From positions 372,001 to 436,000 of the forward strand of contig NZ_LT906446.1 in assembly GCF_900187035.1 (NCBI RefSeq): a DNA stretch of 64,000 bases, read 5' to 3'. Under the pieces are notes generated by a model that was not told the origin of the DNA, ran no database searches, and saw only the letters and a list, made by a program, of their open reading frames with translations. Position 1 is the stretch's first letter, and every line of letters begins with the position of its first letter. The stretch comes from Megamonas hypermegale (GTDB lineage: Bacteria > Bacillota > Negativicutes > Selenomonadales > Selenomonadaceae). This document shows positions 3,667-61,261 of the stretch, piece by piece. The translations under genes and the position numbers were made by a program.

Positions 3667-3694
3667 TTGACATGTGTTAGATATTTGTTATAAT
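3667..3694 (+). promoter_or_regulatory. Sigma-70 promoter of the ZTP riboswitch transcript
   Basis: TTGACA at 3667-3672 and TATAAT at 3689-3694 with a 16-base spacer. Transcription would begin just before the riboswitch aptamer. Confidence 0.85.
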
Positions 3695-3710
3695 AAAAGC
3701 ATAATTTAAT

Positions 3711-3820
3711 AAGCAGTGCGGGACTGACGGATTTAAAGTGGAATTAACCACGTGAACCGCAAAGCTAAAGAAAAGTCGACCGTCTGGGCAAAGAAAATTT
3801 TTGCTCAGACGGTTTTTTGT
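3711..3820 (+). ncRNA. ZTP (pfl) riboswitch with overlapping intrinsic terminator
   Basis: The 5' subdomain has P1 GCGG (3718-3721) pairing with CCGC (3757-3760), the core GGACTGACGG (3721-3730), and P2 GTGG/CCAC (3738-3741 / 3748-3751). After a linker comes CCGTCTGGGCA (3780-3790), matching the conserved 3' subdomain CCGCCUGGGC of ZTP riboswitches. That same stretch is the left arm of a terminator (CCGTCTGGGCAAA / TTTGCTCAGACGG, then T6), so aptamer folding and termination are mutually exclusive. ZTP/ZMP binding, a sign of low 10-formyl-tetrahydrofolate, should turn the downstream gene on. Identified from remembered consensus; a covariance-model search would settle it. Confidence 0.85.
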
Positions 3821-3871
3821 TTGAAGCATAAGTTTTCTTTTATGTTTAATTTTTGTAAAGGAGATTATATC

Positions 3872-5113
3872 ATGAAAAACAGATGGCTTATCGCTTTATC
3901 AGCTGTAGGAATTCATATTTGTATTGGCAGTGTATACGCTTGGAGCGTACTTACAAAGCCAATTATGGAACAAATGGGATTTAGCTTACAGGAAACGACA
4001 TGGACTTTTTCTTTAGCTATTTTATTTTTAGGTCTTTCTGCTGGATTTTTAGGAACTTTTGTTGAAAAACACGGCCCACGTGTAAGTGGTCTTACTGCGA
4101 CTACATTTTTTGGTATTGGTATGTTCGGTACAGCATTAGCACTTTATTTGCATAATTTAGTTTTGCTTTATATTTGTTATGGTGTAATTGGTGGTATTGG
4201 TCTTGGTATAGGTTATATAACACCAGTATCTACACTCGTTAAATATTTTCCAGAAAAACGTGGTTTTGCAACTGGTCTTGCTATAATGGGATTTGGTTTT
4301 GCAAGTCTTGTTGCTGGTCCTTTGATGCAACTACTCACTGCTAATTTCGGACTCGTTACTAATTTCATCATTTTAGGCTGTGCATACGTTGTGATTATGA
4401 GTGCTTCTTCTCTTTATTTAGCACCACCACCAAAACAGCCAACTAAATTAAATACAGCAAAATTATCAACAATAACTAAAGCTCCTACTGTTATTAGACA
4501 GTATACTGTTGGTGAAGCTACAAGAGATTGGAAATTCTATGCACTTTGGTGGGTTTTCTTCACAAATATCACTTGTGGTATCGGTCTTTTAGCTGTTGCT
4601 TCTCCAATGGCTCAAGAAGTTGTAAAAATGAGCCCACTTGCAGCAGCTTCTATGGTTGGTGTAATCGGTTTAATAAACGGTTTTGGTCGCATTGCTTGGT
4701 CAACTATATCTGATTATTTAGGACGCAGAAACACTTATGTATTATTTTTCTTAATTGAAATTTTTGCTTTTTACGCATTGGCAAATACAACAGAAGCGTT
4801 TTTATTCCAGGTACTTGTATTGATTATAGTATCTTGCTATGGTGGCGGTTTCTCTTGTATGCCTGCATATTTAAGCGATTTATTTGGTACAAAACAGCTC
4901 AGTGCAATTCATGGCAGAATTTTAACTGCTTGGGGCATGGCTGGTATCGCAGGTCCTTTATTATTATCTTTTATCCGTGAAACAACACAGAGCTATGCGC
5001 TTTGCTTATATGTATTTTCTGGATTGTTCATCATAAGCTTAATCATTGCAATTATTTTGAAGGTAAAAACATCACGTAAAGAAAAATTGATTTCTAATAA
5101 TATGATGGCATAA
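3872..5113 (+). CDS. OFA-family MFS transporter (oxalate/formate antiporter-like)
   Basis: A 413-residue, 12-segment major facilitator protein. The first loop pattern (GIHICIGSVYAWSVLTKPI), the KYFPEKRGFATGL motif between helices 4 and 5, and the second-half signature FGRIAWSTISDYLGRRNTY are typical of the OFA (OxlT-like) subfamily; substrates range over oxalate, formate and other small monocarboxylates. The reading frame is open further upstream through the riboswitch, but the ATG at 3872 is preceded by AAAGGAG (3858-3863), so I take that start. The gene is the only one between the ZTP riboswitch and the terminator at 5125, so the riboswitch controls this transporter alone. Formate import feeding one-carbon units is a reasonable inference, not shown. 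Confidence 0.88.
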   Translation: MKNRWLIALSAVGIHICIGSVYAWSVLTKPIMEQMGFSLQETTWTFSLAILFLGLSAGFLGTFVEKHGPRVSGLTATTFFGIGMFGTALALYLHNLVLLYICYGVIGGIGLGIGYITPVSTLVKYFPEKRGFATGLAIMGFGFASLVAGPLMQLLTANFGLVTNFIILGCAYVVIMSASSLYLAPPPKQPTKLNTAKLSTITKAPTVIRQYTVGEATRDWKFYALWWVFFTNITCGIGLLAVASPMAQEVVKMSPLAAASMVGVIGLINGFGRIAWSTISDYLGRRNTYVLFFLIEIFAFYALANTTEAFLFQVLVLIIVSCYGGGFSCMPAYLSDLFGTKQLSAIHGRILTAWGMAGIAGPLLLSFIRETTQSYALCLYVFSGLFIISLIIAIILKVKTSRKEKLISNNMMA

Positions 5114-5124
5114 ATAAAAAAAGT

Positions 5125-5176
5125 AAATGGCATTTTCGAAGGTTAGAAATAACTTTTGAAGATGCCATTTTTTATT
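5125..5176 (+). terminator. Intrinsic terminator after OFA transporter
   Basis: AAATGGCA (5125-5132) pairs with TGCCATTT (5163-5170) around a secondary hairpin, followed by TTTT. Its T-tract touches the -35 box of the next promoter (5176). Confidence 0.7.
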
Positions 5177-5234: not shown

Positions 5235-5714
5235 GTGAAGTATAAAACATCTACACTGTGTGAAATCGCTATTTTAGTAGCAATGATTTCTATATTAGGC
5301 TCTATTAAAATCCCTAATATTATTCCTGGTATAGAATTTCAATTATCTGCACCGCTTGCTGTGGCAATTTGTAGTGTATTTGGCTTTAAGAAATACATCA
5401 TCAGCGGAATTTTATCCAGTATTATTTGTTTGGCTTTAGGCACTCAAAATATATTGAATGTAGCAATTGCCATGCAATTTCGCTTAATCGTGGGCTTACT
5501 TTTATATTTGGCACAAAATCATCTTTATATGATTGTCATTGCTGGCCCTATCGCATCACTTATTGCTAGATTTAGTCTATTTTTCTTTTTAGGCAATCTA
5601 GGTGCTTTGACTTTTTCTATGCTTTTATTCACACTCCCAGGGCTTATTTTCACAGCAATAGCTTCTCCCATTTTGGTAAATATCTTAAAGAAAATAATTC
5701 ATAAAAGGAGATAA
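5235..5714 (+). CDS. Small membrane protein of the biotin operon, ECF S-component-like
   Basis: A 159-residue, very hydrophobic protein with about five or six predicted membrane segments and a basic tail (KKIIHKRR), the general build of ECF-transporter substrate-binding S components. I do not see the BioY signature clearly enough to call it BioY. The GTG start at 5235 directly abuts the BirA operator; the weak TAAGG at 5222-5226 is the only ribosome binding site. It lies 4 bases ahead of bioW, so uptake of biotin or of pimelate, the BioW substrate, is the natural guess. Confidence is high that it is a gene, moderate for the transport role. Confidence 0.75.
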   Translation: MKYKTSTLCEIAILVAMISILGSIKIPNIIPGIEFQLSAPLAVAICSVFGFKKYIISGILSSIICLALGTQNILNVAIAMQFRLIVGLLLYLAQNHLYMIVIAGPIASLIARFSLFFFLGNLGALTFSMLLFTLPGLIFTAIASPILVNILKKIIHKRR

Positions 5715-60408: not shown

Positions 60409-60421
60409 TATATTAGAAAAT

Positions 60422-60533
60422 AAAAAAAGGCTGTCATTTCTGACAGCCCCATTTGAGACGGCGTACTTACTATACGCTTAATGCTATTCATCGCACCTCA
60501 AATGTAAACAGTGTACCGAGTCTTAATACCTGT
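60422..60533 (-). ncRNA. Candidate orphan small RNA downstream of proC
   Basis: Minus strand, about 112 bases. Starts after a good promoter and ends in the hairpin GGCTGTCA-N4-TGACAGCC (60429-60448) with T7. Inside, CATTTGAG pairs with CTCAAAT(G) (60497-60503 with 60451-60457) and encloses GCGTA-N7-TACGC (60461-60477). No ribosome site plus start is evident. It lies antisense-free between proC and the DUF3800 gene. I do not recognise the family. Confidence 0.6.
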
Positions 60534-60539
60534 AATTAA

Positions 60540-60568
60540 ATTATATAAATGCCTTAGGGAAAAGTCAA
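60540..60568 (-). promoter_or_regulatory. Promoter of the orphan small RNA
   Basis: TTGACT (60568-60563), 17-base spacer, TATAAT (60545-60540) on the minus strand. The -35 box overlaps the last codons of the upstream DUF3800 gene. Confidence 0.8.
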
Positions 60569-61246
60569 GCAAAGATGATTGGGTATATCACGCAATGTAT
60601 TTTTTTTATATTTATATGAACAAAAAATACGATTGGCAAGAATATCACAGGCTTGTATCATGTAATTTACTTTTGAATCACAATAAGACAGATGTACATT
60701 TACTTCACTTTTAAATATTGAATTTTGTATTTTACTGTAATTGTAATTAAAAATACCAAATTGCATTTCTTCTTTTAATGCTTCACGTAAACCGTAAATG
60801 CCATCAGTCGTTGCGAATTGTTCATCAATGTAAATATAGATAGAAATATCTTCATAAGGATTTAAAGTATTTGCTTCAATCAATTTGTCAATTTCAGTTT
60901 GAATTGCTATTTTTAAAATATAATCTTTATAGCGACAAATAGAATGAGAAGAATAGAGTATTTTATCATACGTTTTAGAAATATCGACAACTAGGGCAAT
61001 ACTATTTTCTTTGCGCAGTACATTGTATAAAGCACGTTTATATTTTGGTCGCAGATTACAAGCTTTGAGTTCACGCGTGGTTTTTAGTGTTTTTTGAATT
61101 TGTTTTACTAGATTAGTATAGCGAACTCGCGCGCTATCAATGTCTTTGCGCGAAGTAAATACAAAGCCAGCATAGACAAATTTTCCGATATCATTAGAAA
61201 TATGCAGTGTGCCTGAATCATCAAAAAAGAAAAAAAGATTTTGCAT
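60554..61246 (-). CDS. DUF3800 domain protein
   Basis: A 230-residue protein with the DUF3800 hallmarks: FFFFDDSGTLH near the N-terminus, ELKACNLRPKYKRAL, IYIYIDEQ and CDSKVNYMIQACDILANRIF at the end. The DDSG and D-x-AD-like acidic residues suggest an RNase H-like nuclease fold, reported around mobile and defence loci, but the function is unknown. ATG 61246 with AAAGGA upstream. Follows a small membrane protein gene by 15 bases. Confidence 0.85.
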   Translation of the reverse strand: MQNLFFFFDDSGTLHISNDIGKFVYAGFVFTSRKDIDSARVRYTNLVKQIQKTLKTTRELKACNLRPKYKRALYNVLRKENSIALVVDISKTYDKILYSSHSICRYKDYILKIAIQTEIDKLIEANTLNPYEDISIYIYIDEQFATTDGIYGLREALKEEMQFGIFNYNYSKIQNSIFKSEVNVHLSYCDSKVNYMIQACDILANRIFCSYKYKKNTLRDIPNHLCLTFP

Positions 61247-61261
61247 AGTATGCAAGTCCTT

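Follow-up and report, generated by a model that had tools for sequence, protein, structure and literature searches.

A ZTP riboswitch stands ahead of a predicted formate importer in Megamonas hypermegale and other Negativicutes

A ZTP riboswitch in the window, by which we mean the whole 64,000-nucleotide stretch of Megamonas hypermegale DNA that was analyzed, is very probably a transcriptional ON-switch that drives expression of a formate importer. The RNA, its overlap with a terminator, the regulon to which it belongs and the conservation of the arrangement were computed, and we infer the ligand response of the RNA, the substrate of the transporter and the direction of transport. The usual view of the ZTP alarmone is that it signals a need for more purine and folate enzymes. 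The arrangement described here suggests that it further prompts uptake of the one-carbon unit, by way of the predicted formate importer.

The unit begins, as the initial annotation held, with a consensus promoter. This sigma-70 promoter (TTGACA-N16-TATAAT with an extended -10 TG; positions 3667 to 3694, + strand) agrees with the consensus at 12 of 12 positions and is predicted from this match of sequence. Downstream of it lie the ZMP/ZTP riboswitch aptamer (3710 to 3796, +), an intrinsic terminator that forms the predicted expression platform (3778 to 3822, +; 17-bp terminator hairpin at 3778 to 3814, with a T run), a ribosome-binding site, AAAGGAG (3857 to 3863, +), 8 nt ahead of the ATG, and a gene for an MFS monocarboxylate-type transporter of 413 amino acids that we predict to be a formate importer (3872 to 5113, +; stop codon at 5111 to 5113). 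The GTG start at position 3752 that had been assigned mechanically to this open reading frame falls inside the aptamer, and the gene starts at the ATG at position 3872. A single gene followed by a terminator had been described, and this is what we find: one coding sequence and then a strong hairpin terminator of 20 pairs with a T run (5125 to 5170, +). The description of the riboswitch as the sole controller of the gene holds in part, in that the aptamer is present and no other control element was found at the locus, while the claim of exclusivity is left unsupported. An RNase J gene lies upstream of the unit, and a group consisting of a small membrane protein gene, bioW and bioF, with a promoter-like site of its own, lies downstream. 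The membrane protein, which has 159 amino acids and is encoded directly ahead of bioW-bioF (5235 to 5711, +), has no match in Pfam or NCBIfam. It looks like a BioY-like ECF S-component, and its substrate is perhaps a biotin precursor such as pimelate.

The presence of a ZTP/pfl aptamer, for which a covariance-model search had been suggested as a check, is borne out by that search. The RF01750 model matches positions 3710 to 3796 (+) over its full length (model positions 1 to 86), scoring 57.4 bits where the gathering score is 39, with an E-value of 1.1e-6 for the whole 64-kb window. The match comprises P1 (TGCGG/CCGCA), P2 (GTGG/CCAC), P3 and the pseudoknot (GACGG/CCGTC). When 37 transporter-associated relatives are aligned, 96.6% of the pair cells hold standard pairs, and 11 pairs, including pairs in P1, P2 and the pseudoknot, have changed on both sides. 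The resulting covariation score is 0.350, compared with 0.121 in shuffles, none of 500 of which scored as high, and shifting the pair partners by 1 to 3 columns abolishes the signal. The pseudoknot between J1/2 and the P3 loop is conserved in all 37 sequences, two of which, both from locus L077, carry the compensated form GGCGG/CCGCC. The minimum free energy fold of the aptamer alone is not better than those of shuffled sequences (z = -0.69), as would be expected for a pseudoknotted fold that is held by its ligand. The riboswitch assignment therefore rests on the covariance model and the covariation. The aptamer itself is unremarkable for its class, which is already known.

The 3' half of the aptamer was also claimed to double as the left arm of the terminator, and we find the overlap at positions 3780 to 3790, where the terminator and the P3/pseudoknot portion of the aptamer have the strand CCGTCTGGGCA in common. 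The terminator hairpin alone has a folding energy of -25.0 kcal/mol (z = -6.9), and none of 200 shuffles is as stable. A loose terminator scan matched 22 control positions, so a strict test was used instead, and by this test a terminator overlapping P3 is present in 52 of 66 relatives, compared with 0.18 expected from shuffled downstream sequence. Because the left arm of the terminator reuses the CCGTC and P3 strand, the terminator and the ligand-bound fold are mutually exclusive. The RNA in the window thus has in common with the ZMP/ZTP (pfl) class all of the consensus helices, the pseudoknot and the terminator that overlaps the 3' half (PMC2864571, PMC7337938), the last of which is a common but non-universal trait of the class. 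By the mechanism known for the class, the riboswitch is predicted to be a transcriptional ON-switch (PMC2864571, PMC7337938).

The pairing of aptamer and transporter is not the oddity of a single genome that it first appeared to be, but a standing part of a regulon. Among 80 homologous loci from public genomes, which were searched for aptamers with a purpose-built covariance model, every one of the 65 with upstream DNA that come from outside the Bacilli and Chloroflexi has the aptamer directly ahead of the gene, at 48 to 162 nt from the start codon and with 27.5 bits for the weakest example (L104). These 65 loci come from Negativicutes, including Phascolarctobacterium, Megasphaera, Dialister, Allisonella, Veillonella, Selenomonas, Pectinatus and Anaerovibrio, except for L077, which is merely related: it is labelled only "Bacillota bacterium" and branches beside the Negativicutes rows. 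The same model found no aptamer ahead of the homologue in any of the 14 loci from Bacilli and Chloroflexi. Likewise, in a survey of 151 genomes from the family to which the window belongs, the aptamer precedes 70 of the 72 copies of the transporter gene, 64 of them by Rfam (47 to 162 nt upstream) and 6 by the purpose-built model, and the two remaining copies are divergent paralogues of 59 to 60% identity. The transporter gene is the target of 64 of the 150 ZTP aptamers listed for the family. The Negativicutes transporters form one clade in a quick maximum-likelihood tree, with an SH-aLRT value of 97, or 100 when L077 is included, and since the ZTP-linked proteins fall into one group, a single acquisition suffices to explain the link. 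As a separate observation, the L077 locus, from a Bacillota metagenome-assembled genome, carries a tandem pair of complete ZTP aptamers upstream of the transporter gene (L077:2716-2926; 70.6 and 78.8 bits), an arrangement that would yield a steeper or two-step response.

Two further ZTP aptamers are present in the M. hypermegale genome. One (249319 to 249406, -) precedes fhs, which encodes formate-tetrahydrofolate ligase (247577 to 249238, -), and the third precedes a gene for a stand-alone AICAR transformylase (PRK07106). In a second genome of the genus (G007), a ZTP-fhs unit and a ZTP-transporter unit lie within 5 kb of one another; elsewhere in the family, the ZTP-transporter unit is directly preceded by fhs in G060 and is followed within 8 kb by a folD-like open reading frame and fhs in G063. 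Other ZTP aptamers of the family precede genes for AICAR transformylase or the pyruvate formate-lyase gene pflB (TIGR01255). One locus (L001) considered as a case of ZTP-controlled folD was rejected, as folD ends where the aptamer begins and the downstream gene is fhs. In one Selenomonas-type genus, a ZTP aptamer precedes xpt-pbuX (L256:101-2181, which was read, and L255), encoding xanthine phosphoribosyltransferase and a xanthine permease, which puts purine salvage under the same alarmone. Another aptamer (L254:101-6546, genome G048) has tatC-like and ubiD-like genes as its first clear same-strand neighbors, with fhs about 4.6 kb beyond.

The initial annotation placed the transporter in the OFA family, and this placement does not hold. 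Both curated OFA models fall below their cut-offs (TIGR00890, 187.1 against 374.85; TIGR04259, 148.9 against 335), the OFA residue signature is missing, and the protein is nearer to SfMCT, the L-lactate:H+ symporter of Syntrophobacter fumaroxidans. It exceeds the cut-off of NCBIfam model NF049980, the SfMCT "L-lactate MFS transporter" equivalog, with 392.9 bits against 320, and its best solved relatives are SfMCT first and OxlT, the oxalate:formate antiporter of Oxalobacter formigenes, second. The predicted structure (pLDDT 88.7) gives MCT1 (Z 44.3) and OxlT (Z 44.0) as its top fold matches and the SfMCT entries at Z 37 to 38. The modeled protein would thus be an MFS monocarboxylate transporter, with a 12-helix fold nearest to MCT, OxlT and SfMCT and with R273 as the arginine of TM8.

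Residues were mapped onto the solved relatives, and every reference residue agreed with its published letter. The carboxylate-binding arginine is kept (R273, which is R280 of SfMCT and R272 of OxlT), as are its asparagine partner N269 and Y115. SfMCT (PDB 6g9x) has the same fold as the window protein, and its residues R280, N276, Y119, Y331, F335 and Y383 correspond to the identical R273, N269, Y115, Y323, F327 and Y375. In contrast, L28, L145, F359 and C362 of the SfMCT lactate pocket are replaced by V21, F141, L351 and W354, and the proton-site residue H250 is replaced by V242. With OxlT (PDB 8hpk), an OFA protein, the window protein has in common the fold and the residues R272 and N268, whereas K355, the other basic residue by which OxlT holds oxalate, corresponds to W354, and V21, S25, I50, L53 and L351 stand in place of Q34, T38, Q63, Q66 and W352. 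The residues conserved in the OFA family are R272, K355, Q34 and T38 (PMC10070484), and only the first of these is kept. These pocket residues do not vary among the 81 homologues of the first set, whether linked to ZTP or not, and hardly vary in 39 further Bacilli proteins of at least 52% identity. A pocket that is invariant with or without ZTP control argues for one substrate. With its single positive charge and its bulky residues, this conserved pocket would suit a small monocarboxylate, given the pocket size that we infer.

Relatives of the transporter that lack the ZTP aptamer are found beside genes for the use of formate. Five Bacilli proteins (L085, L092, L098, L101 and L102) form the sister rows of the ZTP-linked clade, and in all five a purT-like open reading frame, for a formate-dependent GAR transformylase, lies directly upstream; TIGR01142 confirms purT over its cut-off in L085, L092 and L098, and L101 and L102 were assigned by sequence. 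A survey of 199 Bacilli genomes of one order examined 60 homologues together with 4 kb of DNA on either side. Of the 39 homologues with at least 52% identity, 34 have formate dehydrogenase genes inside these flanks, compared with 8 of the 21 more distant paralogues, several by a weak 34 to 35% match only (Fisher p = 2e-4). These neighbors are of the FdhF/YdeP type or are Fdh alpha, with FdhD, and their families were checked by curated models on examples. These neighboring genes are formate genes, in contrast to the lactate assignment of SfMCT, and the name "L-lactate" that NF049980 gives to this clade is probably wrong, the lactate pocket being replaced and the context being one of formate.

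A sister genus (g21) offers further evidence. Its 11 genomes that have the transporter each have a single listed ZTP aptamer ahead of the transporter gene, and in three genomes without the transporter (G093, G099 and G118) the ZTP aptamer lies 61 to 63 nt ahead of a gene for an FNT formate/nitrite channel (PF01226, 99 to 100 bits). The swapped-in protein is short and falls under the cut-off of the curated TIGR00790 model, though it is over that of Pfam. An unrelated formate-type channel gene occupies the same regulatory place where the MFS gene is missing. The FocA/NirC (FNT) formate channels are unrelated to the transporter in fold and family, and their job is predicted to be the same. The M. 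hypermegale genome lacks an FNT channel. Across the family, the presence of the transporter is not associated with the absence of either FNT (p = 0.35) or pyruvate formate-lyase (p = 0.26), which weighs against the formate reading; the idea that the transporter and either of these exclude one another family-wide was dropped, and the ZTP-linked swap in one genus is what stands.

These results suggest the following sequence of events. When 10-formyl-THF is short, AICAR transformylase stalls and ZMP/ZTP accumulates, as is established for the class. By analogy with the class, ZTP would bind the nascent aptamer and hold the GACGG/CCGTC pseudoknot and P3, the strand GACCGTCTGGGC would thus be unavailable to the terminator, and polymerase would continue into the transporter gene. 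The transporter would bind a monocarboxylate via Arg273, Asn269 and Tyr115 and, judging from gene context, would bring formate into the cell. Fhs, behind the second ZTP aptamer, would ligate this formate to THF, and the resulting 10-formyl-THF would feed the AICAR transformylase behind the third. A pyruvate formate-lyase-like gene is present in the M. hypermegale genome, so the cell can make formate itself, which counts against formate import. With this gene present and no purT over cut-off in the same genome, formate taken up would be used by way of Fhs and would supplement the cell's own.

Gene context makes formate the most likely substrate. The neighborhood is silent on the direction of transport, and the inward direction is suggested by the logic of the signal together with fhs, purT and formate dehydrogenase as users of formate. 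The proposal, made from the single locus, that the cell responds to ZTP by importing formate gains support, with substrate and direction still predicted, from the control by ZTP throughout the Negativicutes and the ZTP-fhs unit of the same genome, and further from the FNT swap in the sister genus, the purT neighbors and the formate dehydrogenase genes beside the Bacilli loci. We think it likely that the members of this clade, now named L-lactate or oxalate/formate transporters, are carriers dedicated to formate import, that their small-acid pocket is invariant (R273, N269, Y115, F141, L351 and W354) and that they are tied to ZTP riboswitches in the Negativicutes and, in the Bacilli, to purT or formate dehydrogenase.

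Other readings of the locus were weighed against formate import. The score against the SfMCT L-lactate equivalog, the pyruvate formate-lyase-like gene of this genome and the ZTP aptamers ahead of pflB (TIGR01255) elsewhere in the family would all suit a carrier of L-lactate or pyruvate, with ZTP control supplying pyruvate from which pyruvate formate-lyase would make formate. However, the pocket differs from that of SfMCT by L28V, L145F, F359L and C362W, and the F359A and L145A substitutions reduce lactate transport by SfMCT (PMC6573034). Moreover, Bacilli homologues with the same pocket adjoin purT and formate dehydrogenase, which are users of formate and not of lactate, and pyruvate formate-lyase was not found in 28 of the 70 family genomes that have the transporter. 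We therefore regard transport of lactate or pyruvate as unlikely. An OxlT-like exchange of oxalate for formate would agree with the weak TIGR00890 and TIGR04259 matches and with OxlT, which ranks second among the solved relatives and is one of the top fold matches. Against it, all six of the OxlT residues listed above other than R272 and N268 are replaced, the replacements are invariant in the 81 homologues, and K355, one of the replaced residues, is essential for oxalate along with R272 (PMC10070484). Oxalyl-CoA decarboxylase was found in none of the 151 family genomes. On these residues and this absence, oxalate exchange was rejected, and we give it almost no credence.

Export of formate or another weak acid, easing the acid load, deserves mention because weak-acid MFS carriers can run both ways and many of these genomes have pyruvate formate-lyase. 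Yet expelling a one-carbon donor while 10-formyl-THF is short would deepen the shortage, ZTP also controls fhs, whose product consumes formate, and the purT and formate dehydrogenase neighbors need formate inside the cell; export thus seems quite improbable. The retained monocarboxylate-binding Arg, Asn and Tyr, a signal of folate shortage and the aromatic substrates of MCT relatives such as MCT10 could also fit import of another monocarboxylate of relevance to folate, for example p-aminobenzoate. The Bacilli neighbors, however, are formate genes rather than folate biosynthesis genes, and the bulky Phe141 and Trp354 likely narrow the pocket, which makes a substrate of this kind very improbable.

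The published targets of the riboswitch class are purH, fhs, pfl, glyA, folD and other genes for purine and THF enzymes (PMC2864571). A transporter as a class-wide ZTP target was not found in the literature searched, although the supplements of the 2015 class paper may list it. So far as that literature shows, what is new is such a class-wide transporter target, together with the predicted assignment to formate of a carrier clade that is neither OFA nor FNT. If this assignment is true, the clade imports formate by a route other than FNT and does so at the command of the folate alarmone, and formate exchanged among gut bacteria may reach purine synthesis through a step that a riboswitch controls. 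The evidence likewise proposes a substrate and a residue signature for a widespread MFS clade that a curated model would label as an L-lactate transporter. Elsewhere in the window, a DUF3800-I RNA (RF02969, 81.5 bits; 60418 to 60540, -) lies directly behind a DUF3800 gene (60554 to 61255, -).
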